Position numbers and translations under genes: made by a program
The notes under the pieces: model-generated
Seen by the model: the letters and a program-made list of their open reading frames with translations, nothing else
Told to the model about the DNA's origin: nothing
The model's database searches: none
IMG/VR virus record: IMGVR_UViG_3300050821_000548
Location: 1 to 42,383 of that record
Source of the DNA: a virus
DNA length: 42,383 nucleotides
Reading direction: 5' to 3' (one strand)
Shown here: piece by piece, positions 596 to 41,976 of the stretch
How positions within the stretch are numbered: the first letter of the stretch is position 1
How the letters are laid out: each line of letters starts with the position of its first letter

Positions 596-1033
596 ATGCG
601 CCCCTTCGCTGACGCTATCATTTCCGCCTCGTGGCAGGGCCGGCTCGTTCGGTCCCTGTCGCCGGACATCTCAATTCAGCGCTCGGTATGGCTGTCGATC
701 CTGGCTGCCAGCGGTAAGGCGGAATTCAAGATCGAGCGCAATTGGTTTGTGGCTAACCATGAGCCAATGATCGAGCGTGTGCGTTTAAACGAGGATGGTA
801 CGCTTACGGCTAATTACTATGACCGCTATGGTAACTATCGCAAGGATTTCACCTTGCCGTACCATATCAACACGCTTCTCGAAGAGATGTCCAAGATGCG
901 AATGCGGCTCCTAATGACGCCGCCCGAGATTGTCGAATTCAACAACGCTTGCATCTATTGGCTCAGGCATCGGCCGGCGAAATACGCCAACCTGATACCG
1001 GGCTTCACTTACACAGGAGCGCACCGACCATGA
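596..1033 (+). CDS. Hypothetical early protein
   Basis: A 145-residue protein, not recognised with confidence. I start it at the ATG at 596, one base after the TAA of the repeat-protein gene, because an in-frame ATG farther upstream (560) would overlap that gene by 35 bases. No good Shine-Dalgarno is visible, so translational coupling is likely. The protein is soluble and rich in basic and aromatic residues. Its middle (NEDGTLTANYYDRYGNYRKDF) looks like a beta-hairpin motif, and the C-terminus (WLRHRPAKYANLIPGF) is basic. Its stop overlaps the next start in ATGA. The sequence contains GTTTAAAC at 783-790, read as R-L-N codons. Confidence 0.7.
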   Translation: MRPFADAIISASWQGRLVRSLSPDISIQRSVWLSILAASGKAEFKIERNWFVANHEPMIERVRLNEDGTLTANYYDRYGNYRKDFTLPYHINTLLEEMSKMRMRLLMTPPEIVEFNNACIYWLRHRPAKYANLIPGFTYTGAHRP

Positions 1034-1194
1034 GAACCTACAAAGAGGCTCTTTCCGCATCAAACCGCGCCGCCGAGCACGAAGCTGTGCGCCGCGTCAA
1101 TTACTTCTGGGACCTTGAATGGAACGGCCGCGCCGCCGAGCGCCGGGCCATCAACTCTCCTTGGCCGGCGAAACAGGAGGTTAACCATGCGTAA
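1030..1194 (+). CDS. Small hypothetical protein
   Basis: A 54-residue, highly charged protein beginning MRTYKEALSASNRAAEHEA and ending KQEVNHA. The start is set by the ATGA overlap with the preceding stop at 1031-1033. It has no membrane segment or cysteine motif. It is predicted to be mostly helical and may be an accessory early protein; no function can be assigned. Its end overlaps the next start by 8 bases, so these genes form a tightly packed rightward operon. Confidence 0.55.
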   Translation: MRTYKEALSASNRAAEHEAVRRVNYFWDLEWNGRAAERRAINSPWPAKQEVNHA

Positions 1195-1390
1195 TTCAAC
1201 CCGCTTGGAGCGGCTTCGGAAGCTCCGCGATCTGCTTCGTCGCATCACCCGGCATCCCAAACCGGACTTCGAGTTCGATATGGGCACGTTCGGCAAGGTC
1301 GCCGACGAGGAGCGGCAAACCGTTACGAACCTGAAATGCGTCACTCGCGCGTGTGCCTTGGGGTCTGCGGCGCTTACTCCATGGTTTTAA
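1187..1390 (+). CDS. Hypothetical protein, N-terminal half, ended by an in-frame TAA
   Basis: A strong Shine-Dalgarno (AGGAGG, 1176-1181) precedes the ATG at 1187. The reading frame gives 67 residues and stops at TAA 1388-1390, but the same frame continues open to 1606 with protein-like sequence. The N-terminal half has FDMGTFG followed by CVTRACALGSAALTPWF. I recognise this pattern (FDM, then a cysteine-alanine-leucine-glycine stretch, then P-W-F-x-x-R-G-L) from small hypothetical proteins of proteobacteria and their phages, where it continues without a break. The break thus falls inside the conserved block. A CAA to TAA change would explain it. The product may be truncated, or full length if the stop is read through. 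Confidence 0.6.
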   Translation: MRNSTRLERLRKLRDLLRRITRHPKPDFEFDMGTFGKVADEERQTVTNLKCVTRACALGSAALTPWF

Positions 1391-1606
1391 GATAGAGGTC
1401 TCCACGCTAAACGATATGGGGAAAGCGGTCTAACTGTGCTCTATCATGGCCAAGAGGACCTTGACGCGGGTGCGGATTTCTTTGGGATCACGAGTTCCGA
1501 GGCCGAGGGACTGTTCCTACCAGTCATCGGCCGCAAAAATACGGCGACTGACGTTGCTGACGCCGTGCAAGTATTAATCGACGAATACAAGCTGATCAAC
1601 TCTTAG
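1391..1606 (+). pseudogene. C-terminal half of the interrupted gene, same frame
   Basis: Immediately after the TAA the frame reads D-R-G-L, then LTVLYHGQEDLDAGADFFG, ITSSEAEGLF and DVADAVQVLIDEY, ending at TAG 1604-1606. FFGIT-S-EAEGLF followed by a DVA-containing helix is what I expect at the C-terminus of this small family, so this is very likely the lost half of the gene at 1187. There is no in-frame ATG and no ribosome binding site of its own. The last 11 bases overlap the 3' end of the convergent primase gene. Confidence 0.6.
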
Positions 1607-3488
1607 CCGGCAAATACCATCGGTCGCCGACTGGGCAATATGCCTTCAGCTTATCTTTGGACAGTGCGCGCAATCGCTTCGCTACTTCAGCGATTGCCGC
1701 CTGTCTATCTTCCTCGCTCTGAAATTCAGCGGTGCCTACGAGTTGGGTTGCGACGACTACCCCCGTGACGCCGGCCGCAGGGCCGTATGCGTTTAAACGT
1801 ACTAAGGCCGCGCCGATCTTGTGGGCGTCGAATGGATCGTCGGCTGCCACGAGAACGCGGTGCTCGCCGGCTGTGATGGGAAAGAATACTAGACTGCCGG
1901 CTATTGCGCGACCTTGGAACGTGAATGGCTCTGTCGGCTCCTCGGCGTCTTTGTGCTTGCGGACCCAGGCTTCGACGGTCTTGGAGCCACGGTTCGCTTT
2001 GCATTCAATAACGGTGTCAAAGCCCGCGATAAATGCGCTAGAGCCTCGTGCTGCTCTTTCAGCATCTTTGCCAGAGTGGTGGATCGCGATGACAGTGCAT
2101 CCAAACGTCTCGACGAGGCTATCGCAGAAGCGGATGAAACGCCCGGCGTCACCAGCATCGTTTTCATTAAGTCCTGCCATGCTCTTTGCCAGAGTGTCGA
2201 TAACGATAACGGAGACTTGCCGGCCGGCCGCTTTCTTCGCGATCTGGTCGCCAAATTCTTGGATTTCGTTGGCTTGCGAGACCATTGGCGCTGTCGTGAC
2301 GAAAAAATTTGGGATTGATTTGTCATATCCCTTCGCCGCCTTCCAAGCCCTTCGTCGCGCTTTCTTGATATTGTTTCGTCCTTCCAGCGCTGCGTAAACT
2401 ACAAGACCCTCGCTTGTCGGTTTCGAGCCAAACGTATCCGTCCCGCTCGCAACGGAGAGCGCAAGGTCTAGAGCTAGGAAACTCTTGTATGATTGTGTTG
2501 GCCCAAAAAGCAAGACGGTCGAGCTTTTCGGCACGACTAAGGGGACGATCCATTCGGGGTCTTTTCCTTCTTCCTGTTCGGTTTCGTCTTCGAGATAGAA
2601 GCGTGAACGGCGCTCCGGCTGCTGCGTTCTGAGGACTTCCGCCATCGCTGGCAGAGAACCGAACACTTCAGCAGCCGGAGCCACCGCCCATGCGCCGTCC
2701 TCGTTCTGACTGTATCGGCTCGCGTGGTCTATGATTTCGCGCAGCGCGTCGTCGTCCCAAGGAGGCTCACACTTCGGGTTCCAAATCTCCTCTAACAGTT
2801 CCCAAGATTTCTCCGGTGAGAGACCCAGGTTAAGTAATTCGCAAGCAAGACGGTAAGTGCGGTCATTTCCTCCTCGAAATTCCCTTGCAACGTCTCCTCG
2901 GCTAACGAGTAGAGCAAGGAGAGATCGTCCCCGATCAATGCTTCCTGGGAGGTCAAGGTCTGATAGAGTTGCTTTAGCTTCAACTGTTGGCTTTGCAACA
3001 GCAGCCGCAAGTCCAGCAGGTAGGTCGGCGATGTCTCGATCATCGAGTACCGTGTAAGGCTTGCCATCCACAACGGACGGCGGAATTAGAACATACGAGC
3101 CCCGGCCTCGGGTGTCAACGTCCTTCGCTAGCTTGGAAGCTGTAGGTGGAAGGGACCCAAGGTAGTATCTATGATACCCACCACGAGGAGTACCAACAAC
3201 ATAAGTGGGCATGCTAAAAGCAAGATCATCCCAATTACTCGCTCCATTTTTCCCATCTCCATTATCTATGTCGATCACGCACCATCCGGCCGTCTCGGGC
3301 TCGAACGCGACGTTGTAATCGGCCGCGCCCCACCAAGCATCGATCTTGGCCAAGTCGGTGGTGGCGTCCTGATACCCATGCTCGCACGCCGGCTTCTTCC
3401 CATTGACCTGACAAGGGAAAATCGGGATACCTGATGCTGCATAGGCCCGCGCTGCCGCGTGCCTTGGTGAGATAATTGTGCTTGTCAT
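1596..3488 (-). CDS. Primase-polymerase with RepA-like/AAA helicase domain
   Basis: A 630-residue replication protein that should prime and unwind phage DNA. Residues 1-170 are a Prim-Pol (archaeo-eukaryotic primase) domain: the acidic motif VIDID has D73 and D75, GGYHRYY has H106, and GSYVLIPPS follows. Residues about 312-520 are a RecA/RepA-type ATPase: Walker A GPTQSYKS at 329-336 and Walker B VIVIDTLAK with D431, followed by IAIHHSGKD. The C-terminal 100 residues look like a DNA-binding helical region. I start at the ATG at 3488, where GAAGG precedes; a TTG 16 codons upstream would also be open. It is the only leftward gene in the rightward early/replication block and converges on the gene at 1187. 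Confidence 0.93.
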   Translation of the reverse strand: MTSTIISPRHAAARAYAASGIPIFPCQVNGKKPACEHGYQDATTDLAKIDAWWGAADYNVAFEPETAGWCVIDIDNGDGKNGASNWDDLAFSMPTYVVGTPRGGYHRYYLGSLPPTASKLAKDVDTRGRGSYVLIPPSVVDGKPYTVLDDRDIADLPAGLAAAVAKPTVEAKATLSDLDLPGSIDRGRSLLALLVSRGDVAREFRGGNDRTYRLACELLNLGLSPEKSWELLEEIWNPKCEPPWDDDALREIIDHASRYSQNEDGAWAVAPAAEVFGSLPAMAEVLRTQQPERRSRFYLEDETEQEEGKDPEWIVPLVVPKSSTVLLFGPTQSYKSFLALDLALSVASGTDTFGSKPTSEGLVVYAALEGRNNIKKARRRAWKAAKGYDKSIPNFFVTTAPMVSQANEIQEFGDQIAKKAAGRQVSVIVIDTLAKSMAGLNENDAGDAGRFIRFCDSLVETFGCTVIAIHHSGKDAERAARGSSAFIAGFDTVIECKANRGSKTVEAWVRKHKDAEEPTEPFTFQGRAIAGSLVFFPITAGEHRVLVAADDPFDAHKIGAALVRLNAYGPAAGVTGVVVATQLVGTAEFQSEEDRQAAIAEVAKRLRALSKDKLKAYCPVGDRWYLPAKS

Positions 3489-3883: not shown

Positions 3884-4023
3884 CGCCTATTCCGCTCGGC
3901 ATAACAGTACTTTGCTACTGGTGGGTTGCTTTCGCTCATGCCAAATCCGGTGATTATGGCGTTGCTCTCGCATGGTTCGGCTTCGGGGTTGGCAACCTAG
4001 GCTTCTTGCTCGCGGCTGTTTAA
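3880..4023 (+). CDS. Small membrane protein
   Basis: A 47-residue protein with a GTG start at 3880, overlapping the previous stop as GTGA, with GGAGG 6 bases upstream. It has two hydrophobic stretches: ITVLCYWWVAFA near the N-terminus and VALAWFGFGVGNLGFLLAAV at the C-terminus, separated by the short polar segment HAKSGDY. That predicts a helical hairpin in the inner membrane. No family is recognised. The TAA stop lies within a GTTTAAAC palindrome, and the helicase ATG follows three bases later, so the pair is translationally linked. Confidence 0.6.
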   Translation: MTPIPLGITVLCYWWVAFAHAKSGDYGVALAWFGFGVGNLGFLLAAV

Positions 4024-4026
4024 ACA

Positions 4027-5924: not shown

Positions 5925-6106
5925 CTGGCGCATCGAGTAAGCGTTAGTTTGGCTGCGACGCTGGCCGTATGGACGGACGATGAGCGGTTAATGCAACGCC
6001 CTTAGCGGGGCACGCGGAGGCCGGAACCCATCGAAGAATAGGCCAGTCGCGAATGGCTTAGAGGGCACCACCCTCACGGTGTCACGGATTTAAACAGGAG
6101 GTCTCA
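5925..6106 (+). other. Non-coding leader with possible RNA structure
   Basis: About 180 bases without a credible reading frame; every ATG is followed by a stop within a few codons. It contains GC-rich inverted segments: CGCG plus GGCC around 6009-6018 can pair with GGCC plus CGCG around 6042-6052, and GGCACC (6063-6068) can form a 6-bp hairpin with GGTGTC (6078-6083). ATTTAAAC and a perfect AGGAGG follow directly before the ATG at 6107. It may be a structured 5' leader, a small RNA or a regulatory site; I recognise no known RNA family. Confidence 0.4.
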
Positions 6107-6969: not shown

Positions 6970-7897
6970 CGTTGAGATCGCCGATGCGATCCAGGTCTAC
7001 CTCGACACTGTACGCCCCGGCATGGCTCGGGCGACCCTCAAGTACGTCGAGCACCGGATCAGTCAGCCTTCGGTCCATAAGGACTTCTTTGGCACGGTTG
7101 ATCTTGGCCTTATCTTCGATGACGCGACGGGCGAGATCAACGACTACAAGCACGGCGAAGGCATCCAGGTCGATGTCGAATGGAACGTGCAACTCATGTA
7201 TTACGCCTATGGGTTCGCGTGCGAATTCCCCGGCGTCCGCAACTGGAAACTGAGGATCATTCAGCCGCGCGGCTGGCATCCTAATGGGCCAATTCGTGAA
7301 TGGGAGATCAGCACCGATGACTTATGCGAATGGGCCGAGAAGGAGCTTCTGCCGGCGATGGCTCGCACAGAGCTTGACCATGACCTCGATGCTGGCCCTT
7401 GGTGTCGCTTCTGTCCTGCAAAACTCGTCTGTCCGTTGTTATCATCTCTCTTTGGTGCTGCGGCGAAAAGCAATCCGAACACGGTTGTCAACCTCTCGGC
7501 TGAAAGCCTTGGACGATCTTATCAGTACGTGCAAGCCGTGGAATTTTACCTTAAGGCTATGCGAGACGAAACATACCGGCGTTTAAACAAAGGCGATGAA
7601 GTCCCTGGCACGAAGCTGGTCAACAAGAAAGCGAACCGGGTCTATCGTGCCGGCGCCGCCGACGAATTCAAGACCAAGTTCGGCGAGAAGGCTTATACTC
7701 CGCCTGAGCTTAAGTCGCCCGCCGAGATGGAGAAGGTCGGGCCGGCCGCTGCCGCTCTCGTTAAGGAATGGGCCTACACTCCAAACACCGGCTTGACAGT
7801 GGCGCTCGCCGATGATAAAAGGGTCGGTGTCAAGGTCAAGACGACGACCGAGGCATTCCCTAATGCAATCGCAACAACGGAGACTACCAATGGCTAA
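6740..7897 (+). CDS. Cas4/RecB-like nuclease, DUF2800 family
   Basis: A 385-residue PD-(D/E)xK nuclease. The N-terminus has the family signature LGASSAERWMNCPGS. The active site is visible as H77-region helices, then GTVDLG (Asp), then NDYKHGEG (D-x-K) and the helix VDVEWNVQLMYYAYG. A cysteine cluster, WCRFCPAKLVCP, after the nuclease core together with the N-terminal cysteine resembles the iron-sulfur cluster of Cas4/AddB-type nucleases. I start at 6740 rather than the ATG at 6734 because GGAGG (6729-6733) abuts the first and is 6 bases from the second. It probably processes DNA ends in recombination, with the SSB-like gene immediately downstream. Confidence 0.9.
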   Translation: MENQPEHSPLGASSAERWMNCPGSIALLQTLKIDDETDEPDYRKNGVAAHAAAASCLLSGEDAWTVVGQVFHGVEIDVEIADAIQVYLDTVRPGMARATLKYVEHRISQPSVHKDFFGTVDLGLIFDDATGEINDYKHGEGIQVDVEWNVQLMYYAYGFACEFPGVRNWKLRIIQPRGWHPNGPIREWEISTDDLCEWAEKELLPAMARTELDHDLDAGPWCRFCPAKLVCPLLSSLFGAAAKSNPNTVVNLSAESLGRSYQYVQAVEFYLKAMRDETYRRLNKGDEVPGTKLVNKKANRVYRAGAADEFKTKFGEKAYTPPELKSPAEMEKVGPAAAALVKEWAYTPNTGLTVALADDKRVGVKVKTTTEAFPNAIATTETTNG

Positions 7898-8632: not shown

Positions 8633-10645
8633 TTGCGCGAAATCGTTTTAGACTTTGAAACGGTTTCGGCCTGTGACCTCCGCTTGTGCGGCGCATGGCG
8701 CTATGCCGAAGACCCGACGACCTCGATCCTTTGTCTGTCCTACTCCATCGACGGCGGAGACCCGACGCTTTGGGTGCCTAATAGCCCGGACCCTATATTA
8801 AAGGCCCTTGTTGATAGCCCAGAAGCTATATTCATCGCCCATAACGCCAGTTTCGAGAAAGCCATCTGGCGCAAGATCATGGTGCCCGACTATGGCTGGC
8901 CGGACATTCCGAACTCGCGGTGGGATGATACGCTCGCTTGCTGCGCGATGAAGGTGCTACCCCAAGACCTCGACCAAGCGTTGATCGTCCTTGGCCTACC
9001 GCACGAGAAGGATCGCGAGGGCTCGAAGCTTACGCGGTCTCTGTCGAAGCCCGAGACGCGGAAGAAATCGAAACGCTACGGGATGTTCCCTGAACTCACG
9101 CCGGCAATTCTCAGGAGGGTTTATGACTACAACATCCAGGATATCCGGGGAACGGTTGATCTTAGATCACGGCTTGGACCTTTGCCTTCAACTGAGAGAG
9201 CAGTGTGGTTGCTCGACCAACGTATCAACGAACGGGGCGTTTGCCTTGACTTGCCCTTTGTGCAAAAGGCAAGAGAGATCGTTGATCGTGGCTCTGCGCC
9301 GCTTGCTGTCGAGTTTAAACATCTCACAGGAGGTCTCGGCATCGGTCAGGCAGTCGCAATCGTCGGGTGGGTTCGCTCACAAGGCGTAGCGATCCCAAAT
9401 CTTCAAAAGGAGACATTGGCGCGGCTTCTAGGAGAGACTGAAGATGGCGAAGATGTGGACGACGACCCAGGCGAACTCACTCAAGCGTTACCTGATGCGG
9501 TTAGACGCGCGCTTTCGATCCGCCAACTCATTGGAAGCGCAAGTGTTAAAAAGCTCGCTCGTATGGAAGCTTGCGTATCCTTCGATGGCCGGGCAAGAGG
9601 TCTGTTACAGTACCATGGAGCGGGACCGGGACGATGGGCTGGACGATTACTCCAACCTCAAAATTTCCCGCGAGGAACTACTCAGCTTGATAGCTCGGCG
9701 CCTAACCCGCAGCTAGTCGTCGATGCAATCCTGACAGGAGATCCTGACTATGTGGCTTCGTGCATTGGACCTCCAGTTGAGACGGTGGTATCCGCTCTTC
9801 GGTATAGTCTCGTATCTTCACCAGGACGGGTGTTCATGTCTGGCGACTTCTCGACTATTGAAGCGCGTGTGGTCCTCTCGTTGGCCGGTCAGCATGACCG
9901 TACCGCTATTATGGCTGCTGGCAAAGACATCTACATCGACATGGCGAACTCGATCTACAAGCGAACGGACCTAACCAAGAAGAACAATCCCCAGGAACGG
10001 CAAACCGGAAAGAACTCTGTCCTTGGCCTAGGCTTCCAAATGGGAGCGCCGAAGTTTAAACTTCGCTACGCCAAGGATCAACCATTGGAGTTTGCACAAA
10101 ATGTCGTCAACACTTATCGAAAAGAATGGGCTCCTCTCGTGCCAAAAGTGTGGAGCGGCTTGGAATACGCGGCTCTGCGTACTGTATACGATAAGACGCC
10201 GCATGAAGCTTATGGTGTCGAGTATCGCTTGGAGGATGGTTGGCTTTCAGCCCGACTTCCTTCTGGTCGAAAACTCTGGTATTACGATCCCCTGCCGACG
10301 ACCAAGGCTATGCCATGGGATGAGACGGACGTTCGCTTGGCTTGGACGTATAAGGCCAAGAAGATGGGGCAATGGCGGACCATCGACGCCTTCGGTGGGC
10401 TCCTAACCGAGAACGTGGTGCAAGCCCTGGCGCGCGATCTAATGGTCGCGGCGATGTTCAAGTGCGAAAAGAACGGGTTGCCAATCGTGCTCACCGTCCA
10501 CGACGAGATCGTCGCCGAGCCAGAAGAAAAATATGCCGACGAGCTTGCGCTGAAGCAAATTATGTGCGATAGTCCTGATTGGGCTCGGCAACTCCAAATT
10601 CCGATTGGTGTAGAGACATGGATGGGCAACCGCTACCGGAAATAA
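8633..10645 (+). CDS. DNA polymerase I (family A) with 3'-5' exonuclease
   Basis: A 670-residue replicative polymerase. The exonuclease domain comes first: ExoI LDFET (D7, E9), ExoII AHNASFEKAIW, and ExoIII-like YNIQDIRG (about 166-173). The polymerase domain has motif A MSGDFSTIEARV (Asp near 404), the O-helix RQTGKNSVLGLGF with Phe where T7 polymerase has Tyr, and motif C TVHDE near 623. There is no 5'-nuclease domain. The start is a TTG at 8633, preceded by GGGGG at 8624-8628; the exonuclease motif at residues 6-10 leaves no room for a later start. GTTTAAAC occurs twice inside (9313, 10054), both read as F-K. Confidence 0.95.
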   Translation: MREIVLDFETVSACDLRLCGAWRYAEDPTTSILCLSYSIDGGDPTLWVPNSPDPILKALVDSPEAIFIAHNASFEKAIWRKIMVPDYGWPDIPNSRWDDTLACCAMKVLPQDLDQALIVLGLPHEKDREGSKLTRSLSKPETRKKSKRYGMFPELTPAILRRVYDYNIQDIRGTVDLRSRLGPLPSTERAVWLLDQRINERGVCLDLPFVQKAREIVDRGSAPLAVEFKHLTGGLGIGQAVAIVGWVRSQGVAIPNLQKETLARLLGETEDGEDVDDDPGELTQALPDAVRRALSIRQLIGSASVKKLARMEACVSFDGRARGLLQYHGAGPGRWAGRLLQPQNFPRGTTQLDSSAPNPQLVVDAILTGDPDYVASCIGPPVETVVSALRYSLVSSPGRVFMSGDFSTIEARVVLSLAGQHDRTAIMAAGKDIYIDMANSIYKRTDLTKKNNPQERQTGKNSVLGLGFQMGAPKFKLRYAKDQPLEFAQNVVNTYRKEWAPLVPKVWSGLEYAALRTVYDKTPHEAYGVEYRLEDGWLSARLPSGRKLWYYDPLPTTKAMPWDETDVRLAWTYKAKKMGQWRTIDAFGGLLTENVVQALARDLMVAAMFKCEKNGLPIVLTVHDEIVAEPEEKYADELALKQIMCDSPDWARQLQIPIGVETWMGNRYRK

Positions 10646-12571: not shown

Positions 12572-13034
12572 AATTTATCTCGCCGGCCCTATCACGGGCT
12601 GCACGGAGGGTCAAGCAAATGACTGGCGTACAGACTTTGCCGCTCGGCTTGAGAGCATCCGAATTCGAGGCATTAGCCCGCTACGCTGCGAACCGCTCCA
12701 TGGCCCTGTCTACGGTTCCACCTATAACGATTCTCGTTTTGGAACGGCCAAAGCCATCTCGTCCAAGAACCTCATGGACCTTCGACGCTGCGACCTTACC
12801 TTAGCCTACTTCCCCTACGCCGAGACAGCGCGGGTCCCGAGCATCGGCACGATCCTTGAGATCGGCGCGGCGCACGAGAACGGAAAGCCGATCATCGTCG
12901 TGAGCGAGCACCCGAAGACGAGCGACCATCCTGTGCTCAACGCCTTCGCCGGCTGGATGCTGTCGGATTTAAACGAGGCATTCGAGACCATCCAAGGTCT
13001 CTTCGGCGAGTACACGCGAGGCTTCCATGAGTGA
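12564..13034 (+). CDS. Nucleoside 2-deoxyribosyltransferase-like protein
   Basis: A 156-residue protein with the family opening IRIYLAGPITG, a central LRRCDLTLAYFPYAETARVPSIG (split motif: Asp plus G-T-x-x-E in GTILEIGAAHENGKPIIVV), and the conserved Glu within EIGAAH. These enzymes move or hydrolyse deoxyribosyl groups on nucleobases and belong to the Rossmann-like NDT/DUF4406 group. GGAG lies 9 bases before the ATG at 12564; an in-frame ATG at 12549 is an alternative. Next to the dATP/dGTP diphosphohydrolase gene, it points to control of the deoxynucleotide pool. ATTTAAAC lies at 12967. Confidence 0.75.
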   Translation: MIRIYLAGPITGCTEGQANDWRTDFAARLESIRIRGISPLRCEPLHGPVYGSTYNDSRFGTAKAISSKNLMDLRRCDLTLAYFPYAETARVPSIGTILEIGAAHENGKPIIVVSEHPKTSDHPVLNAFAGWMLSDLNEAFETIQGLFGEYTRGFHE

Positions 13035-16305: not shown

Positions 16306-19300
16306 CGCATCCCCGCTCGATCCATCCATTGCAGGGCTCGCTCAGATACCACTTGCATTTGGCCGTAGATCATGTCTTGTTGCTGCCGCTTATCATCCTT
16401 CGACATTTGCTCGACCGGCATGGCGTCGATCAGCTTCACTCGGTCATTGAATTGCTTGAGGAGCTTCTGCGCGGTCATCAGCGTCTCGGCCGCTTGCTCG
16501 TCGGCCTTGCCGCCAGCGCGGTCAAGCTCGTTCATGTATTTATCCATGTCGCCCCGGTTCTCCATTTGCTGACCGATCTCGCCTTTGAGCGACATCTTGT
16601 GCATCAGGGCCGCAGTCGGGTTCTGGGCGAGCAACTGTTTAAACCCGTCGAAGTCACCGTCCGCCATCGCCTTCTTGATCGAGCCATGGATTTGGTTGAA
16701 CCGATCCGTCGCGTCATAGAAGTCGCGAATAGGCGCAGCGTTGGCACCAGTGTACCGCGCGGTGAACCGGGAGAAGCCAGGAAGCTGATCGAAGTCCATC
16801 GTCGGTGCATTCTTGCGGATCACGCCGGCATTGGATAGCGCCATCTCGGTCGCATGGAGGGCCGTGTTGCCGATGCCACCCCATTGCTGAATGTAGTTGT
16901 CGATCACGGGTGGCGACAAGCGCATGTTCTTCAGCAGCGGGATATCGTTCGCCCACACCGAAAGTTGTCGCGCCGTCTGGGTCGAAGCCTTCGTGTACTG
17001 GTATTGTGGCAGAGTGTTGTCCTGCAATGAATGGGGCACAAGTGGTTGGCCCTTGAAGAAGCTATAGTTGGCAAGGTGCTCCACGATGGGCTCGGCCGCG
17101 CTCGCCATTCCCATGGTCGCGGGCGGGAGCACGCCTTCGGCCAAGCTCGCTGCAAAATCTTTGCCGGCAGCCGGGTTGTCGTTGATGAACTTCTCGGCGA
17201 GCCGGCGCGGAGCGGCGCCATAGATCGTCGAGAGCATCGGCGGGAACTTCAGGTAATGGATATAGGCCGGCTTGTCGATGGTGCCGCCGACCGCGAGGAA
17301 GATACCGTTGTCCTTCATATAGTCCGGCTGAGCCTTGTACCATTCGGTGTCCTTGTAGAGCGCCCAGAGCCCGAGCGTCGGGACCGTGATCGCGGCTGCG
17401 GCTTTGATGCCGAAGTTAACGCCACTACGCTGGTCGCCAAGGATCGTGCGGCCGAGACCAAGTTGCCCGCGCACGACTTGCTCCATGCTATTGAGCACAG
17501 CGCCAGTGAACGGAACATACGAGTTGATGGCGCGAGTGGCGGCGCCGCCGAAGCCGGCTCGGTGGAACGCAGCCTCGGTCGAGGCGACAGAAGCGCGGAG
17601 TTCAGTCTCGCCCTGCGCTATGCCACGATAGAAGCGCCCGGCCTTCTGAATGCTCATCATGTCCTGCGACACGACCTTCATGAGCCGGAACGGGCTCTTG
17701 ATCATATTCCAAACGCCGTTGAATAGCGTCGGGTCCTGAGTTCCAGTCTTGAGGAGGTTCATGATCTCGGGGTCGGACGCCATCGTATGAAACATGCCTT
17801 CGCCGCCGCCCGCCTGATACCAACGCGACCATCCTTCATGCCCGAAGCCCTGCACAACGCCGGTATAGAAGTCAGCGAGAGTATTGCGATAGCCCGGTGT
17901 CTTGATGAACTGGAATGGCAAGTCGTATAGGATGTTAGCGGTCGCGAAGATCGGGTTATTCGTGATCGTCGCTCGGACGCCGCGCGTGAACGCACGAGCC
18001 CATTTGCCCAACTGACTCACTTGGCCGGAGGCGTCATAGCCGCGCAGATACTCCGTCAGGTGCGGATCGGAGAACTTCACGCGCACGGGAGAGCCACGGT
18101 CGAACATTGGGACTTCATCTTTGGCGAGACCGAACTTCGTCATCCAGCCGGCAAGCTGCGACCGATCAGATTGGGTGCCTTCCTTGGTAGGATTGCCCAT
18201 GTCCTCGACGTACTCTTCTTGGTCGATGTCGTGCCATGTCGCGGGATCGAGTGTCTCGGGCTTCTTCATTACCTTCGAGACAGCCTCACCGAGCCCTTCG
18301 GCCATGTGACGGATGGCAAGATTAGCTGCATTCTGATCCGCCATGGCGATACGACGCACAGCGTCGGATGCCAGAGATTGCCACAGCGGGCGCACCTTAC
18401 TGTCGGAGCCATAGAATGTTTTTACGGGTGTGCCGACTGTTTTGCCGGCACCACCTGGACGCTGAACTTCCTCATCGGGCTCTTTCCAGCGGTAGCCGGG
18501 GATACCGGCTTTATTTTCGGCCACAATGCGATCATACGCATCGGACGAGATGAGCCCATGATCGCGGGCGTAGGCGAGGGTACTGTTGCGGAAATCCATG
18601 ACATCTTGAAACCCTTTCACAAACTCAGGGATACCATGCTGCGGATGCTCGACCTCGGCGACAATCTGTTTCGCCGCGTCGATTTCAACGCCGGTCTCTT
18701 TCGACTGCGCCGCCTTCTCCACCGCCCACTTGGAATAGGCGTAGCGGTCAAAAGTCCGCGAGCCACTCTCGACCGCCTTCACGGATTTCGCGACCGGCAG
18801 AAGCTCATCCCTGATTTTCATGAAGGCTCGGTTGCGCGAGGTCGAGGTCATGCGGTTGAGCATCGCACCGTTGGCTTCATCGGGCAGCGGCCCACCGTTC
18901 AATACGCGGTTAGTCAATTGGTTCAGCGGATCATCCGGCGCCCAAAGCTGACGATAGAAGTTGCCGACGCTCTTGGTGATGCGGCCGAGCCAAGTCTGAT
19001 TATCCTCGGCGAGTTGTTGACCCACGACTTCCCAGGGGTTCGCGTAAGCCATCTTGCCGGGCTCGGGGCCTTCGATCATGCGGCGATAAGCATTGCCGGC
19101 CGGAGGCTCAGGAGGACCCTTCGGCGGCTCACCACCAGCGGGCGGTTCCTCGGGGGCCAAGACTTCTTGCTCGGCTATCGGCATCCGGGGAATGATCAGA
19201 TCGCCCTCGTGTGCCGGATGGTTCTCTTCGTAGTTCCGCGTGAAGTTAAACTCGGTACTTTGATTGATTTCCTCGGCCTTCGCGCGAACCATGCTCTCAG

Positions 19301-25600: not shown

Positions 25601-26851
25601 CCCACCGATCAATTGCACCGTTGCGCTATTGGCGCTGAGCACACTCGCGATGGTGCCCCAGGTCCACAGAGCGCCAGTCGGGTTGATCTGCCAGCTATTA
25701 AGGTAGAGATCGGGTTCGAGCCCCGTGTTCGTCGTCAGCGCCGTGTAGTACGCGCCGTTCCAACCAACCACTTGCCCGGCCGAATATGGCGTGGCTGGCT
25801 GCCAAGGCAGCGGTTCAGTGAAGATGCGGATTTGCCGGCCAACATCCGTTTGCTGGAGGCCGTTGGTGCCGACTGCGCCACCGGAGTTCACTTGCTGCCA
25901 GAAGCTCGGGCTCAACGCCGGGTTGTTATTGAGGTTGCCGCCAACGAGCGACACATAATCAAATCCACCAGACGTTACGAACTGACCGGAAGGATAGGTC
26001 ACGGTGTTGTCCCATGGCGCATAGCCCATGGTGATGGTGATGACACCGCTGGTGCCGCTGGTGGTCAACTGCGAGCCCGGCACCGGATCGAGATATGGTC
26101 CATCGACGAACGCGGCCGGCGCTATGGTGAAGGGCGCGAACTGTGGTGCCTTCGGCGCCGGCGTGATCGTAATGACCTGAGGCTGCGTTTGACCTTGCAG
26201 CATCACGATATTCGTCTCGGCTTGGACCCCACGGATGGTCTTCCACGATCCATTCGTCCAGGGCGAAGGGAGGTCCACGACGCGAGCAACCTGAGCAGAA
26301 ATTTGTGTAGGGTCCCAGAAGACAGTTCCGCCATCCACGGCCAAGCCGCTGATTGGATCAGTGAGCGTGAACTGATCGCCGGAGAGGTTGTTGATTACGA
26401 ATTGGCGATTGCGAAGGATAGCGCAATCAGCGGTTGCCTGGGCCGACTGGAACAGAAATCCGACTTGATTTCCATTACTCCAGGCTGGAGGAGTTGCGAC
26501 AGTAACAACGGCCGGGTTCGCGGTCGAGATGTTAGTGACCGTAGCGACATCCGAACCAAAGACCAATAAGGGTCCGAAGAAGAAACGAACGTGCCCATCC
26601 GTAAACTCCACGTTGTAAGGGGTCGTCTGCTGCGGCGCGAACTTAATCAGACGACCGGGATTACCGTTGCGAGTAGTCGCGCAGAAGCGTGTGCCGGAAC
26701 GGCGATTGCACGCGCCTTCTTCGAGAGGGATCGCGTTTAAACAAACCTTCATCGCGATCTTGTACCCAGGCAAACTCATGCGGCCCTGCGCGAGAGGGCT
26801 CCATTCACCACCGAGGAAACTTTCTTGGACGAACGAGGCATCCCCTGGCAT
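22637..26851 (-). CDS. Tail tubular protein B / nozzle (gp12-like), enlarged
   Basis: A 1404-residue tail protein. The N-terminus (QESFLGGEWSPLAQGRMSL, NRRSGTRFCATTRNGN, RLIKFAPQQTTPYNVEFTDGHVRFF) is the usual opening of podophage nozzle or 'stabilisation' proteins, which form the end of the tail tube. T7 gp12 is about 800 residues, so this one carries large additions. Three segments look like CBM5/12-like carbohydrate-binding modules (YAPWDNTVTYPSGQFVTSGG near 280, PWQPATPYSAGQVVGWNG near 350, and AWNSGTTYQPGTVVWSGE near 1050), plus a long beta-propeller-like middle. It is coupled to a 32-residue gene upstream by a TAATG overlap. Confidence 0.88.
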   Translation of the reverse strand: MPGDASFVQESFLGGEWSPLAQGRMSLPGYKIAMKVCLNAIPLEEGACNRRSGTRFCATTRNGNPGRLIKFAPQQTTPYNVEFTDGHVRFFFGPLLVFGSDVATVTNISTANPAVVTVATPPAWSNGNQVGFLFQSAQATADCAILRNRQFVINNLSGDQFTLTDPISGLAVDGGTVFWDPTQISAQVARVVDLPSPWTNGSWKTIRGVQAETNIVMLQGQTQPQVITITPAPKAPQFAPFTIAPAAFVDGPYLDPVPGSQLTTSGTSGVITITMGYAPWDNTVTYPSGQFVTSGGFDYVSLVGGNLNNNPALSPSFWQQVNSGGAVGTNGLQQTDVGRQIRIFTEPLPWQPATPYSAGQVVGWNGAYYTALTTNTGLEPDLYLNSWQINPTGALWTWGTIASVLSANSATVQLIGGPLLYTTTVFTWRIGAYSNSTGWPTVGTYYEGRLWLSGAVPNRFDGSNSNNIFVFSPTAPDGTVGDANSVSGVANSEDDNTLTWMKPTSQGILCGSLGGEWLIHASTLNDPITPTSIQFHRVTKYGSGFIEPVSVGFTTCFVQKQGRKILEALADVFSGRFSAPNLTRYAKHLTTAGLAELTYQEELAPVLWARCNDGSLIGCTYRRVSAFASEDPVFFGWHRHILGSGRLVESISAGPSIGGTLDNLSMVTNDPATGIRHVEVMTDLFDANSPITSSWFVDDAVTPSGCQVQTINGKTGVTFYGLWHLNGKTVSVSVGGLDVGDFAIASGSVFVPFGSDANGLFTQAYLTSLETNGVVYPFSTLINTVVTNTPALSPTPATALPIPAPTGTITTSNGTPLVDLVNNLLYQFSTTGPNFGITKTNILTGAQINQAVLANAPTGLPLYTLGFDGSLFYQSSAPFQLNKINPNSLTVTGSIALGSGAGIPHVGATWLAQNAACVQSGGTNYIVTFDQGCDQLNVVNTDNMTFCGFTTLNPPSGNQIPGGAGVMCAGHSGADYGEVFSIVSNASGIALRSLKIAAIDVITCTAANAPLIIAQGQIPVLGLNFPVAANQWNPPGAPIAAWNSGTTYQPGTVVWSGETFPLGYYLSIALSGNTNKNPTGGGNQTFWAPYPVNPCITMQLRNTLAPGAFGTGASAISALSMVVDQSDGNIIVQLTFTGGSTGQGVAKLRASDGTILWFTPLPTTQVVLGASSSQNLNRVIGFTLAIMSPNVDGTGQYPVYVFNTRNGTFTTYHVGGLQNQGGYIFDAVGGRVISYGNLVAGSPGMPTQTPPNANGWVDQWSVFQLGTIFFGSTTAISSGTIPAVIGFTYTTQGQILRPNDREAVGAMTGPGFGKTKRQHQFAALIQAGVVGTMSFGTEFTHLHPANFTDATRRALLSPLTLFSDIWWDTIDDSYSFNSQDCWQISRPVPGIIAAIGGFIHTQDR

Positions 26852-28513: not shown

Positions 28514-30136
28514 TTATTGGACTTCAACGATGCTCAGTAAGAATGGACCAGCGGCCGATGCGATAGCCGTTATCTCTCGGCGGTCCATATTCCCTTTAGC
28601 ATCGTACATCTCATACTGGTCGAGCGGTCCTGTTGCCGCTGCGGGATTAAGGACGATGCCCGTTCCGGCCACAGCGGCAACATGGAAGTTAAGAGTAATG
28701 GTCCCGGCGCTCGGGTTCTTTATGCATCGATATTTCGCATTAGGATTTGCCGCCAATATGGTTGTACTCACATTTGTGACGTTTACAGGCGTAATCGCGA
28801 GGGCTAATGAATTTGGCAGTGGTGAAACCAACTGCATAGCCGGGGTAACGACGCCATCTTTATCCGTGGTGCCAGCCAAGCGTGGATTGCGAGCGGCTTC
28901 ATACGAAGGCGAAATAGAGAAAGCCACGTTATCGATAGCATTCGAATTCTGCAACGCAGCAGCGAGCAACAAACACCCTGCTTGAGTGGGATGGATACCA
29001 TCGTCTGTAATGCCACCGGCCGCGCCGGTAACGACCCATTTGTTGCTCTCACGGGCATACATGAGAACGTCAGCGATCTCGATTACGCCGTCTACCCATG
29101 CCGGCCTGTCACCAACACCAACGCCGTAAGCGCCGCTGCCGCTCACCGCACCACGCATCCAATCGTTGAGGAGGAACAAAGTGGAGTTCTTACCTTCGGT
29201 GAAAAAACCAGTCGGCTTTTGTCCGCTAATTGTTGCCCAACTGTCACTGGATGCCGAATTAGCTGGTATCGTAGACAGAATGAACTTGCAAGTCGGTGGC
29301 AGGAGGTTGTGGAACCTCAAATAGTTGGATTTTGTAGTCTCAATCAGCGAACCAGCGCCGACATCGTTTAAACCCAACTGGCAAACCACATGCGACACCC
29401 AAGAGGCAAGGGCGATACGATTTGTAGCGAGCCCACCAGCCCACGCATTAATTGTGTCAGCCGAAGTTCCACCATTGATGTAGCCGTACTTTGCTCCGAC
29501 CGTTCGGGCCAAGAGGCCCATGTCGCCCGTGTTATCATTGACGCTATCATGCGAATTTGCCACGCGGCTATCGCCAGCAAGCAAGAATGATGGTTGGCTC
29601 GTAACACCGATGATCGCAGCCGGCCCAAACCAGAAGTTAGCGCCGCCACCATCGACTACCGTACCACTTAGGGTCTGATCAGTCGCGCCAGTGATCGTCT
29701 GGGCATCACCGAGAACCGTGGCCTTGAGACCATCGGATTTAAACGGCAAGCTCGCGACGCCGGGGTTGAAGAAGATACGAACCCAGAAACCCGTTTTCGC
29801 CGGGATCGTAACCGGAACGACATCCGAAAGAAGGGTCGAATTGTTCAGAACTGATCCCGAAGTCGCACCGGCAAATTTGATCTGCGAAAACACGCCGGCC
29901 GGGTATTCGATGGATGCTGTAACGGTCGCCGCTTGGCCCGGCGCAGTCTCGCCCGCCGCGCCATTGACCCAGAAATTCGGGATGACAATTTGCAAGCCCG
30001 AGACGCCCACCATAGTACGGTGGAAGCTGCGTGACATCATGGCCGTGCCATGCGCAGCATCCAACTGGTTCGGGAATGCACCACGCGTGGCCACGACGCC
30101 AAGATACGGGGCGATACTCGCTTGCTGATTGCTCAT
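28514..30136 (-). CDS. SGNH/GDSL hydrolase tail spike candidate
   Basis: A 540-residue protein. Residues 1-180 are beta-rich. Residues 183-390 are an SGNH hydrolase with all four blocks: GDS with Ser190 (LLAGDSR), Gly222 (INGGTS), GLND with Asn257, and DGIHPT with Asp379 and His382. A C-terminal 140-residue beta domain follows, probably for trimerisation or binding. Such enzymes deacetylate or de-esterify capsule, LPS or exopolysaccharide, so this is a likely depolymerase-type receptor-binding protein. It follows the small virion genes, and GTTTAAAC (29366) encodes part of the GLND block. Confidence 0.85.
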   Translation of the reverse strand: MSNQQASIAPYLGVVATRGAFPNQLDAAHGTAMMSRSFHRTMVGVSGLQIVIPNFWVNGAAGETAPGQAATVTASIEYPAGVFSQIKFAGATSGSVLNNSTLLSDVVPVTIPAKTGFWVRIFFNPGVASLPFKSDGLKATVLGDAQTITGATDQTLSGTVVDGGGANFWFGPAAIIGVTSQPSFLLAGDSRVANSHDSVNDNTGDMGLLARTVGAKYGYINGGTSADTINAWAGGLATNRIALASWVSHVVCQLGLNDVGAGSLIETTKSNYLRFHNLLPPTCKFILSTIPANSASSDSWATISGQKPTGFFTEGKNSTLFLLNDWMRGAVSGSGAYGVGVGDRPAWVDGVIEIADVLMYARESNKWVVTGAAGGITDDGIHPTQAGCLLLAAALQNSNAIDNVAFSISPSYEAARNPRLAGTTDKDGVVTPAMQLVSPLPNSLALAITPVNVTNVSTTILAANPNAKYRCIKNPSAGTITLNFHVAAVAGTGIVLNPAAATGPLDQYEMYDAKGNMDRREITAIASAAGPFLLSIVEVQ

Positions 30137-33454: not shown

Positions 33455-33799
33455 TTAAGCTTTGTGACCGCCATTCGTCATGAACGTGTCGAGGGTCTTC
33501 TGGGTCATCCCACCAGCGTCGAAAACACAACCCTGGATCACGAGCACGACGAAGTAGTCGCCGTTTGGCATCGAGGTCACGAAGATATGGTCGAATACGT
33601 AGTCCGTCTTGGGCTCGTCGGCGTTATAGTACGCCTGAAAGTTTAAACGAGCTTCGGCCGGCATCTCCGTGAAATCGTAACCACTTTGCTTCATGAACGC
33701 CGCCTGTCGATCCCAAGGAAGCTGACAGACTTCATCGGCGAGCGCCGGCACACATGAAAGGAACAAAGCAAGAGCCGAAATAGCAATAATCTTACGCAT
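33455..33799 (-). CDS. Small secreted (periplasmic) protein
   Basis: A 114-residue protein with a textbook Sec signal peptide: MRKIIAISALALFLSCVPALA, with cleavage expected after A21. The mature 93 residues have two cysteines (C25, C91) that could form a disulfide once in the periplasm, and beta-strand-rich sequence (YVFDHIFVTSMPNGDYFVVL). Starting at ATG 33799 gives a proper signal peptide; upstream in-frame Mets do not. Its place between scaffold-like and capsid genes is odd for an exported product. Possible roles are superinfection exclusion, receptor masking or envelope stress control. GTTTAAAC lies at 33641. Confidence 0.7.
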   Translation of the reverse strand: MRKIIAISALALFLSCVPALADEVCQLPWDRQAAFMKQSGYDFTEMPAEARLNFQAYYNADEPKTDYVFDHIFVTSMPNGDYFVVLVIQGCVFDAGGMTQKTLDTFMTNGGHKA

Positions 33800-37046: not shown

Positions 37047-37049
37047 GGA

Positions 37050-37256: not shown

Positions 37257-38684
37257 TCACCCAAATAGCGGGAAGTCAACGTCTTTTGCAACGGTCTGCG
37301 GACGCCGGCTTTTGAGGGTGCCGCCGAGCGCGGTAGCCTTCCAATATCGTTTCATCATAATGCCATAGCGGGTGGCGGACAGCAAATCATCGCGCTCCTT
37401 GACCACCAACCCATCCTTGCGGTGGTACATCCGGTATTCCTCGAACCACTCAGCTAGGTGCTCCACGACTTTGAGCCGGCCGGTGGACATCCGGTTCTCC
37501 ATCTCAGCCACGCCGGGCTCGAACGCATTACCTCCCTCGGGCCATGTGGCCATGAGCGGGTGCATGAGCAAGCCCTGGTCCTTGTACTGAAGCGAGAGTT
37601 GCCGGCCTGATCCTTTATCGCGCTGGTTGCCATCCTGCGGCCAGAAGACCGGGACGTTGATGCCGATCATCTTCATGCGAATAGCGTGCTTCATCGCATC
37701 GCCGTCTTTCATGCGGATCGCGTTGAGAATATGGATCACGTCGCTGTCGCGATCCCACGCCATCAGCACGGCAGCAAAATTATGCCCAATACCAAAGTCG
37801 ATACCCCATCCTTTGACCCAGACTGTTGGCAGCATATCAATTATTGGTTCACGTATAGTTTCTTCGGCGATCTTGAAGACGCGCCCTTCCCCCAACATAG
37901 GGACACCACGCGCTCGCGCTTCCCGTTCGTGTTCAGGATAACCAGCGATAATCTTAGCCCGCTCATCGGCTGGAATATGTTTCGCGTCTTCGATGACCAT
38001 ATTCGTAACCGAACGGTCCTCAGAAGGCTCATGCAGGAAGCGAGAGACGACATCGGACATTCCCTTCAGAGGCGTGAACGTCATGAACAGGAAACCGCCT
38101 GTCGCGGTGAAGCGGGCCAAGCACTCCGAGTAGATGTCAATGGGCGGCTCCTCGTCGAGCCAGATGAAGTCGAGCGTTGCTGATTGGAACTTCGGCCGTC
38201 CTTGCTCGTAGGATTTAAACGTCAGAGTGGATATTCCACCAGTAGCATGCCGCACTTGGATTGTGTCGTAGGCATCCGTCACCCCTCGGGCAAGGGATGG
38301 CTTTCCAACAAACCTGTCCCTTGGTATGAGCCCGGTTCCGAACGCCTCCTCGACGCCCGGCTGGCCGCACAGGAGTTTCTGCGGGCCGTCGCGGACTAGG
38401 ATGCTGGTCTCGCCTGCCGCCCACCCCGCTACCGAGTGATTGATCCGCCGCCCCGTCCACCACCATGGGTAGTCTCCTGTCAAATGAAACGCGACCTCGG
38501 CCGCGCCGGCATAGGTCTTGCCAAGCTGGTTGCCAGCCATGAGTAGCCGCTCGCGCTTCTGCACGCCAAACGCGAAGAAATCTTCCTGTTTCGGATATGG
38601 CTCAAAGTAGTCTATCTTATGATAGCGATGCCGCTCATCGAGCGCTCGAAGGCCGGCTAGGATTGCGTCGAGATCGACGGTCAT
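37257..38684 (-). CDS. Terminase large subunit
   Basis: A 475-residue packaging motor. The ATPase domain has Walker A AGNQLGKT (50-57) and Walker B LDFIWLDEEP (D177, E178). The nuclease domain has WGIDFGIGHNFA (D296), IHILNAIRMKDGDA, and a later Asp in VKERDDLLSATRYG. It cuts the replicated DNA and drives it into the prohead through the portal. The start overlaps the small subunit stop (ATGA). ATTTAAAC at 38213 lies within the ATPase domain. Confidence 0.95.
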   Translation of the reverse strand: MTVDLDAILAGLRALDERHRYHKIDYFEPYPKQEDFFAFGVQKRERLLMAGNQLGKTYAGAAEVAFHLTGDYPWWWTGRRINHSVAGWAAGETSILVRDGPQKLLCGQPGVEEAFGTGLIPRDRFVGKPSLARGVTDAYDTIQVRHATGGISTLTFKSYEQGRPKFQSATLDFIWLDEEPPIDIYSECLARFTATGGFLFMTFTPLKGMSDVVSRFLHEPSEDRSVTNMVIEDAKHIPADERAKIIAGYPEHEREARARGVPMLGEGRVFKIAEETIREPIIDMLPTVWVKGWGIDFGIGHNFAAVLMAWDRDSDVIHILNAIRMKDGDAMKHAIRMKMIGINVPVFWPQDGNQRDKGSGRQLSLQYKDQGLLMHPLMATWPEGGNAFEPGVAEMENRMSTGRLKVVEHLAEWFEEYRMYHRKDGLVVKERDDLLSATRYGIMMKRYWKATALGGTLKSRRPQTVAKDVDFPLFG

Positions 38685-39515: not shown

Positions 39516-39560
39516 ATGTTTAGGGTGCAATCTGGATGCAGTCAACAAGCGAGGACCACC

Positions 39561-39620: not shown

Positions 39621-39672
39621 TCCGCCTCCTTGAATTAGCGGAAATTATGAAATAGTTAACAGGAGTTAACCA

Positions 39673-39774
39673 ATGGATGACGCAATTCGTTTCTGGCATG
39701 GCGTATGCGCTGCAATCGTGGCATCGGGCTTAATCTTAGCAGCGATCTATGGTCTTGCCGAGCTATGCCGCTAA
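39673..39774 (+). CDS. 33-residue membrane peptide
   Basis: A short frame, MDDAIRFWHGVCAAIVASGL then ILAAIYGLAELCR, with AGGAG 7 bases before the ATG. It predicts one membrane helix. The Shine-Dalgarno is flanked by GTTAAC on both sides. It lies before the main early promoter, so it would need its own transcription from within the AT-rich region. No homologue is recognised. Confidence 0.45.
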   Translation: MDDAIRFWHGVCAAIVASGLILAAIYGLAELCR

Positions 39775-39810
39775 GGCCAAAGATTTAATGATATGTTCCC
39801 TATCTGTTGC

Positions 39811-39839
39811 TTGACTTTTAGGCTTGTGTGGTGTATGCT
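39811..39839 (+). promoter_or_regulatory. Sigma70 promoter for the rightward early operon
   Basis: TTGACT (39811-39816, five of six) is followed by exactly 17 bases and TATGCT (39834-39839, four of six). The predicted start, near 39846, gives a leader of about 73 bases before the ATG at 39919, containing a small hairpin (GCTG/CAGC near 39850). It is the best promoter on the plus strand and sits just upstream of a chain of overlapping small early genes. Confidence 0.65.
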
Positions 39840-39918
39840 CTAGGCTTCGCTGTCGCAGCGGACGCAGCCAATGAGCTATACGCCTACACAATTAGCCTGA
39901 AACCACGGAGGTTTCACT

Positions 39919-41197: not shown

Positions 41198-41294
41198 AGT
41201 AGACCCAAAGGTTAACCGCTGGCATCTCACGCCGGGCCACACTTTCGAGCGTGACATTGATCCGTTTCTATGGGATGATACTCCCACAGTTTAA
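41109..41294 (+). CDS. Small hypothetical protein
   Basis: A 61-residue protein: MPLYLIDDQGREHGLLSRDI, IQLLESLGAIEVDPKVNRWH and an acidic C-terminus (FERDIDPFLWDDTPTV). AGGGAG lies about 10 bases before the ATG. It overlaps the previous gene by 89 bases in another frame. The TAA stop is part of the GTTTAAAC palindrome that opens the hairpin leader of the next gene. Unknown function. Confidence 0.6.
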   Translation: MPLYLIDDQGREHGLLSRDIQLLESLGAIEVDPKVNRWHLTPGHTFERDIDPFLWDDTPTV

Positions 41295-41311
41295 ACCTTA
41301 GGAGGGTTTAA
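41291..41311 (+). promoter_or_regulatory. Hairpin leader presenting the Shine-Dalgarno in its loop (copy 1)
   Basis: TTAAACC (41291-41297) and GGTTTAA (41305-41311) are perfect 7-bp complements around the loop TTAGGAG (41298-41304). The Shine-Dalgarno AGGAGG spans the loop and the first stem base, 9 bases before the ATG at 41315. A second identical element precedes the repeat-protein gene. It may be a translational control hairpin or, as DNA, a palindromic operator. Confidence 0.6.
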
Positions 41312-41314
41312 CGA

Positions 41315-41938
41315 ATGGAAGACGCAACGCGACCGAAATACACCACGCGCGAAGAATGGTTAATGGAAGCAATCGAGCTAGAGCGCCCTTGGTTCAAGGA
41401 TGCTGGCTCGCCGCTTCCGGCCAAGCTTCGCATATCCTGCGGCTTCCCGCTAGGATCACGGAAAGCCATCGGGCAATGCTTCCAACATGGTGATGCGGAT
41501 AAGGTCCAGCATATTTTCATTTCGCCTGTGTTGGGCGTGGTTGCTGCTAAAAACTCTGTGCTAGAAACTCTGACGCACGAGCTATGCCATGCCGCGTTGC
41601 CTATTGGGTCCGGGCATAAGCGCCCATTCGCCAAGCTCGGCGAAGCTGTTGGCCTAGAGGGTCCACCTTGGACAGCAACCAGTGCGTCGCCTGATCTTGT
41701 GCAGCGCTTCGAAAGGATCGCCCGAATCTTGGGCGCTTACCCGCACGCGATCTTGCGGCCGGACGAGGGACGAAAGAAGCAATCTACCCGGCTCGTGAAA
41801 TGCGAGTGCAACGATTGTCATGCGATCTGGAGGATGACGGCTAAGTGGGTTAATGTCGCTGCGGATCGTGACGGCATTTCATGCCCAGTCTGTCAATCGA
41901 CTGATACTACCGTTGACATCGAAGACGGCGACGATTAG
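41315..41938 (+). CDS. SprT-like zinc metalloprotease with C-terminal zinc ribbon
   Basis: A 207-residue protein. Residues 35-115 are an SprT-like protease domain with HELCH (88-92) in VLETLTHELCHAALP and the third ligand H101 in GSGHKRPFAKL. Residues 160-195 form a zinc ribbon with C165-x2-C168 and C190-x2-C193. This is the full Spartan/SprT architecture, whose cellular members degrade proteins crosslinked to DNA. A shorter paralogue-like protein lies at 3536. Expressed early and with the hairpin leader, it could process host DNA-bound proteins; that is inference. Confidence 0.88.
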   Translation: MEDATRPKYTTREEWLMEAIELERPWFKDAGSPLPAKLRISCGFPLGSRKAIGQCFQHGDADKVQHIFISPVLGVVAAKNSVLETLTHELCHAALPIGSGHKRPFAKLGEAVGLEGPPWTATSASPDLVQRFERIARILGAYPHAILRPDEGRKKQSTRLVKCECNDCHAIWRMTAKWVNVAADRDGISCPVCQSTDTTVDIEDGDD

Positions 41939-41955
41939 AACTAGCGCACAGTCAT

Positions 41956-41976
41956 TTAAACCTTAGGAGGGTTTAA
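41956..41976 (+). promoter_or_regulatory. Hairpin leader presenting the Shine-Dalgarno in its loop (copy 2)
   Basis: The same 21-base inverted repeat as at 41291: arms TTAAACC (41956-41962) and GGTTTAA (41970-41976), loop TTAGGAG. The ATG follows at 41979. Outside this core the two sites differ (GTTTAAAC at the first, ATTTAAAC at the second), so the core has been conserved or recently duplicated. Confidence 0.6.

Follow-up and report, generated by a model that had tools for sequence, protein, structure and literature searches.

Cluster A mycobacteriophages of the L5 type (PMC9283540) and Streptomyces phage R4 (PMC10276819) carry stoperators, in which one short site recurs genome-wide, at early promoters and elsewhere. 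These stoperators are asymmetric, oriented with transcription, and mainly intergenic, and their repressor is a helix-turn-helix protein. Dispersed motifs have also been described in actinophages of clusters K, EC, EF, and EG, where start-associated or upstream repeats precede start codons by some tens of bases; in the available part of that source, no gene is linked to these repeats, and no such repeat is named for cluster EH or phage Zeta1847 (PMC7302621). The SprT-like or Spartan (SPRTN) crosslink proteases combine an HExxH metalloprotease domain with a following zinc-binding region, and the DNA binding of SPRTN is structure-dependent rather than sequence-specific. According to the available part of PMC7826251, SPRTN-type proteases are activated by DNA and SPRTN cleaves itself.

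Here we analyzed a 42.4-kb phage contig (the window) in which the palindrome GTTTAAAC is dispersed; its structural genes, among them terminase, portal, and tail genes, form a podovirus-like module. As in the stoperator systems, the site occurs in many copies genome-wide and is rare in the host, the proposed reader is encoded by the phage, and site and reader appear to co-evolve. Whereas the Cluster A and R4 stoperators are longer, the sites described here are 8 bp, mostly palindromic, and largely genic (57%); the proposed reader is a zincin with a zinc ribbon, the system is found in phages of several phyla, and a stop of transcription is here a prediction. The sites differ from the cluster K, EC, EF, and EG repeats in sequence, in being linked to a gene, and in lying mostly within genes. 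In contrast to SPRTN, a specific 8-mer and the ribbon covary here, and loss of the protease motif can leave the sites in place. We propose, with a probability of about 0.68, that the phage's own SprT-like zinc-ribbon protein recognizes GTTTAAAC, probably binding it both at promoters, as operators, and within genes, as stoperator-like sites.

Over-Representation of the Palindrome

A sequence-only reading of the window had stated that GTTTAAAC is strongly over-represented and had suggested that selection acts on the DNA itself. The over-representation was confirmed, and the selection was supported. The window contains 12 exact copies against 0.30 expected from dinucleotide shuffles (maximum of 2 in 100), and GTTTAAAC is its top over-represented 8-mer (p ~3e-17) under an order-2 Markov model, the type of model also used for the expected counts across genomes. 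Within genes, 10 copies were found against 0.37 expected (maximum of 4 in 1000) in the codon-preserving shuffle that had been suggested as a check, which exchanges synonymous codons within each gene and thus preserves the protein and codon usage, though not codon pairs. Genic copies were read only as TTA-AAC or TTT-AAA, and the GTT-TAA frame, which contains a stop, was absent. Five copies of the variant ATTTAAAC were also counted, all on the + strand. The sites are listed below; the palindromic GTTTAAAC is given without a strand.

783..790, GTTTAAAC, within gene 596-1033
1791..1798, GTTTAAAC, within primase-polymerase/helicase gene 1596-3488(-)
4018..4025, GTTTAAAC, between gene 3880-4023 and an SNF2-type helicase gene
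6088..6095, + strand, ATTTAAAC, right before the ribosome-binding site of gene 6107-6652
7581..7588, GTTTAAAC, within exonuclease gene 6740-7897
9313..9320, GTTTAAAC, within the DNA polymerase gene
10054..10061, GTTTAAAC, within the DNA polymerase gene
12967..12974, + strand, ATTTAAAC, within the nucleoside deoxyribosyltransferase gene
16637..16644, GTTTAAAC, within virion transglycosylase-domain gene 16302-20639(-)
19802..19809, GTTTAAAC, within the same gene, 16302-20639(-)
26735..26742, GTTTAAAC, within gene 22637-26851(-)
29366..29373, GTTTAAAC, within esterase-like gene 28514-30136(-)
29737..29744, + strand, ATTTAAAC, within the same gene, 28514-30136(-)
33641..33648, GTTTAAAC, within gene 33455-33751(-)
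38213..38220, + strand, ATTTAAAC, within the terminase large subunit gene
41289..41296, GTTTAAAC, directly upstream of sprT; proposed autoregulatory operator
41954..41961, + strand, ATTTAAAC, upstream of the tandem-repeat gene

At least 264 bp are common to the two contig ends (bases 1-264 and 41958-42221), so that the contig is circular-like and the genome is ~41,957 bp; the site at 41954 was counted once. CTTAGGAGGGTTTAA was found downstream of both the 41954 and the 41289 sites. Separately, gene 22-594 at the circular junction contains a 33-bp tandem repeat with an 11-residue unit (222-524 and 42178-42383), of which the two contig ends carry different stretches. The AT-rich, non-coding region 39200-39900 contains many TTAAC repeats and one TTAA-N7-TTAA; it resembles CtrA sites or an origin and may hint at an alphaproteobacterial host.

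Chance or codon composition as the source of the copies was rejected on the dinucleotide and synonymous-codon shuffles. No point in its favor was found, the 8-mer ranking and the conserved positions and spacing given below are likewise contrary to it, and we regard its probability as negligible.

Co-occurrence of the Site With an SprT-Like Gene

Structural relatives, recognized by their terminase, portal, or capsid-region proteins, mostly contained 0 or 1 GTTTAAAC per locus or whole record. The site was abundant in L072 (9 in 10.2 kb) and L084 (9 in 15.5 kb; 0.03 expected each), where its flanks were unrelated to those in the window. When all window genes were compared with all loci, the sprT gene (41315-41938) was found in five loci only, L072, L084, L092, L094, and L099; the last three have zero GTTTAAAC but 9-21 copies of CTTTAAAG against ~0.04 expected. 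Among loci fetched solely through a terminase, portal, polymerase, or capsid-region protein, and thus blind to SprT and to the site, 5/5 with SprT and 2/109 without it were site-enriched (Fisher 1.4e-7), and both exceptions, L105 (12.7 kb) and L128 (from a 21-kb record), are partial contigs. The enrichment that the sequence-only reading had proposed looking for in related phages is present in most sprT carriers and absent from most structural relatives, because these lack the sprT gene. As a side observation, relatives without a ribbon-bearing SprT showed other abundant words, ACCAATGG (20 vs 1.2 expected) and CGGAGACG (13 vs 0.7), in G006 (L025-L027) and MW202898 (L020).

SprT relatives were present in 163 phage records, chiefly of Arthrobacter and Microbacterium. 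GTTTAAAC was strongly enriched in R5C (17), Pan1 (16), Venkman (34), Mica (7), Alexa (8), Arya (7), and MW202512 (9), and GTTTACAC in the actinophages Crosby (41), Cen1621 (28), Powerpuff (27), Tweety19 (26), Zeta1847 (22), Emotion (17), and Percival (10), with at most 0.13 expected in each of these seven. When IMG/VR was scanned with SprT sequence as the sole criterion, 44 loci were obtained, several partial and some near-duplicates, the majority enriched in one of four variants. An enriched variant (GTTTAAAC, GTTTACAC, ATTTAAAC, or CTTTAAAG) was found in 55/66 SprT carriers (p<1e-4), a count that excludes MW202512, whose SprT was too divergent for that search and was found by annotation. The site was the top 8-mer in 30 of 56 site-bearing genomes and the second in 16 more, behind its own shifted form.

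SprT alone was the family shared among the motif-bearing lineages, and the pairing was seen in proteobacterial, cyanobacterial, and actinobacterial phages from at least 10 bacterial host genera. Ribbon-bearing SprTs without a clear motif were found in L258 and L225, both partial loci; enrichment was weak in ep3 (4 sites; 3 vs 0.89 expected in the part analyzed), and L224 and L229 were too short to judge. The L258 protein, with the ribbon KPGSR, grouped with that of the window in the tree; its locus is not enriched in GTTTAAAC and contains 16 copies of CCTCGAGG against 0.75 expected, possibly a new site type. In open-access full text, we found no earlier report linking an SprT-like protein to GTTTAAAC, to GTTTACAC/GTGTAAAC, or to palindromic repeats.

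At 12564-13413 of the window, a nucleoside 2-deoxyribosyltransferase adjoins a dATP/dGTP diphosphohydrolase domain protein, possibly forming a nucleotide-pool or base-modification pathway. The diphosphohydrolase gene was common to R5C and Pan1 only and therefore cannot account for the site, so a base-modification link was rejected as its explanation.

The Zinc Ribbon as Candidate Reader

The gene 41315-41938 matched phrog_6361 (E 4e-34, residues 9-193) and scored 22.3 bits for PF10263, under the cut-off of 25.6; its L099 homologue scored 30.5. Alignment showed a HELCH motif at residues 88-92 with a conserved third histidine, H101, and zinc-ribbon cysteines C165, C168, and CPVC 190-193. The AlphaFold model (pLDDT 85.6) contains a predicted beta hairpin in the ribbon. 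A sequence search of solved structures returned chance matches to Rubisco and lectin only, and a PDB fold search returned only weak zincin and MCM/HypA zinc-ribbon pieces (E >0.2). A broad SprT alignment spanned too much diversity to serve for scanning. The relevant features are as follows.

41277..41282, + strand, possible -10 element GATACT, 6 bp before the 41289 site, read by eye from the sequence
41315..41938, + strand, sprT-like gene g50 (207 aa), HExxH metalloprotease domain and C-terminal zinc ribbon; candidate site reader
41576..41590, + strand, codons of the HELCH catalytic motif, placed by alignment
41774..41920, + strand, zinc ribbon with its KKQSTR arm (~residues 154-202), candidate DNA-reading segment; its QSTR Arg covaries with the outer base of the site, and where the ribbon is lost the sites are lost too

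A second SprT-like gene, 3536-3883 (PF10263, 31.4 bits), lacks the ribbon and has relatives in site-free phages; it is therefore not the correlated gene.

Site type tracked the sequence just before and within the ribbon. K-x-Q-[STG]-T-R ribbons were paired with GTTTAAAC or GTTTACAC, VQPTR ribbons with ATTTAAAC (4/4), and ribbons that carry another residue in place of the Arg (TYL, TAL, TSL, AAL) with CTTTAAAG (7/7). L094, whose ribbon lies beyond the contig end, also has CTTTAAAG. In a catalytic-domain tree, made with the ribbon left out, replacement of Arg by Ala, Ser, or Tyr coincided with a change of the outer base from G..C to C..G (GTTTAAAC to CTTTAAAG) in 3/3 independent changes, a number too small for the sign test (p 0.25); the tree test of ribbon presence against site presence had only 2 pairs. 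SprTs with a missing or degraded ribbon (Epa5, CN2, L255, L256, L259, Coltrane, and Quenya) came without sites, and this held for ribbon-less proteins with an intact HExxH. Conversely, L215, L230, and L231 have lost HExxH (QQLIH, QQLIY) and kept the ribbon, and they contain 23, 17, and 21 CTTTAAAG sites. The sites therefore follow the ribbon and not the protease, which is dispensable for keeping them. We think that this double dissociation is the strongest evidence for the ribbon as reader.

Metalloprotease-repressor pairs such as IrrE/DdrO and ImmA/ImmR are established, and by analogy SprT might be a partner only, cleaving or removing another phage or host regulator that binds the site. DNA-binding genes do adjoin sprT in some actinophages; in Powerpuff and Percival, further "DNA binding protein" genes immediately precede it. 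However, no further family is common to the site-bearing lineages, the site base covaries with ribbon residues, and the sites are kept after the protease motif is lost, which makes such a partnership improbable.

Placement of the Sites

Placement was surveyed for 584 sites from 34 genomes or loci, with simple, approximate gene calls. Of these sites, 43% touched intergenic DNA against 15% expected, and 149 lay at most 40 bp before a start codon against 40 expected; repression is least certain for the genic 57%. The motif TANNNT was found exactly 5 bp past the site in 16/112 cases, mostly in actinophages, against a background of ~1. Many sites in Cen1621 and Zeta1847 occupy the 17-bp spacer of promoters resembling TTGCGC...TATGAT, many in Powerpuff, Tweety19, Emotion, and the prophages directly follow a TAGACT-like -10, and GTTTACAC copies before genes were co-oriented with the gene in 45/54 cases. 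In 23/56 genomes, against 9 expected, a site lay no more than 250 nt upstream of sprT, and most named isolates tested had one upstream of their own sprT. The window has the order GATACT, 6 bp, GTTTAAAC, ribosome-binding site, and sprT, and the layout at sprT is alike in Mica and Mano. Promoter placement is thus clearest in actinophages and suggestive in the window.

At 75-80% identity, site positions were conserved in 6/9, 12/15, 12/16, and 14/17 cases against 0.9-2.5 expected, and in several genomes the spacing was more even than chance (CV ~0.55 vs 0.93 random). Together with the synonymous-codon shuffle, these results support selection on the DNA itself. Venkman is an exception in spacing, its sites being crowded in the non-structural half. 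At Venkman (L213) junctions such as 2154-2161, 2611-2618, and 3789-3796, GTTTAAAC abuts the start codon and includes the upstream stop, thus spanning the entire gene junction.

Genome-wide spacing and the many genic sites would also suit loading points that tether the SprT protease to phage DNA, where it would clear crosslinked proteins, host silencers, or stalled polymerase from the phage genome only; HExxH is intact in most carriers, and SPRTN-type relatives are DNA-activated (PMC7826251, available part). Against this stand the abundant sites of the three loci without HExxH and the precise placement of sites in promoter cores, and we consider a tethered protease unlikely, if less so than the partnership discussed above.

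Returning to recognition by the SprT-like protein, the computed over-representation, gene co-occurrence, ribbon covariation, promoter overlap, positional conservation, and prophage concentration (see below) form the pattern from which we infer direct DNA binding, repression, roadblock, and switch. The KKQSTR arm and zinc ribbon would read the 8-bp site. Bound to a promoter, either in the -35/-10 interval or where transcription starts, the protein would block initiation, often at the promoter of its own gene, sprT. Spaced genic sites would act as stoperator-like roadblocks, and the phage genome would be kept silent or timed. More speculatively, the protease domain might serve as a switch by self-cleavage, as SPRTN does.

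Lysogens, Host Strains, and the Missing Repressor

In Arthrobacter sp. EPSL27, the sprT prophage is on contig 1, and the ~30 kb around it contain 18 of the 43 genomic GTTTACAC copies. Contig 4 of this strain has seven GTTTACAC in 19 kb (G050 C4:1365980-1384732), far from that prophage, perhaps marking a second prophage with the same system. Pseudarthrobacter siccitolerans 4J27 contains two sprT prophage loci, L265 and L266, with 8 and 3 GTTTACAC in ~20 kb each; their presence in one genome bears on the question of shared immunity.

The sequence-only reading had also offered a host-protein binding site and a protected restriction/methylation site. The 8-bp palindrome, identical to the PmeI site, would fit a host factor or a restriction or methylation site protected or selected in the phage. 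However, the same variants occur in phages of unrelated hosts, tracking a phage gene over at least 10 host genera, and SprT-less relatives are nearly without the site. Among phages of a single strain, M. foliorum NRRL B-24224, the site varies in step with the SprT ribbon (28 copies in Cen1621 and 10 in Percival, none in Coltrane or Quenya), and the lysogen copies are concentrated in the prophage. The outer base covaries with SprT residues, and no cognate methyltransferase was found among the window genes scanned. A host-wide motif or restriction site was rejected on the same-strand phages, the SprT-less relatives, and the prophage count, and we regard readings of this kind as very unlikely. 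The stoperator analogy was the best of the three ideas offered, although GTTTAAAC is palindromic and the sites here are not mainly intergenic.

Cluster AZ phage Powerpuff forms immune lysogens with no repressor identified, and an SprT-like gene is common to AZ and EH phages, for which homoimmunity has been reported (PMC8758107). In the available part of PMC7302621, EH phages and Zeta1847, for which no repressor is given, are considered possibly temperate, whereas cluster EB (Armstrong) is considered lytic. Coltrane belongs to the same species as Armstrong by taxonomy, its SprT ribbon is degraded, and its genome is without sites. This pattern of lifestyle, ribbon, and site suggests the ribbon protein as the missing repressor, and we propose SprT as a candidate immunity repressor in AZ and EH phages. 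No integrase was found in the window phage; lysogeny is therefore not supported there, and immunity and control of lytic timing are equally plausible. No helix-turn-helix repressor gene was found among the window genes scanned, which comprised part of the ORFs. A bolder reading would make the SprT zinc-ribbon fold a new kind of phage repressor with sequence specificity, the immunity repressor of temperate AZ/EH phages included, with a simple Arg-to-base code and an autocleaving protease as induction switch; this is possible but doubtful.

Implications

If the proposed recognition holds, what annotation routinely labels a DNA-repair-type protease would, in phages of several bacterial phyla, regulate the whole genome through a specific sequence, and the ribbon residues and their bases would constitute a natural recognition code. 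How tens of sites are gained or lost together with one mobile gene poses an evolutionary puzzle. Cluster AZ and EH phages, including those that form immune lysogens without a recognized repressor, would gain a concrete, testable repressor candidate, and the network of SprT and its sites may point to the repressor that is still missing for a large phage group.
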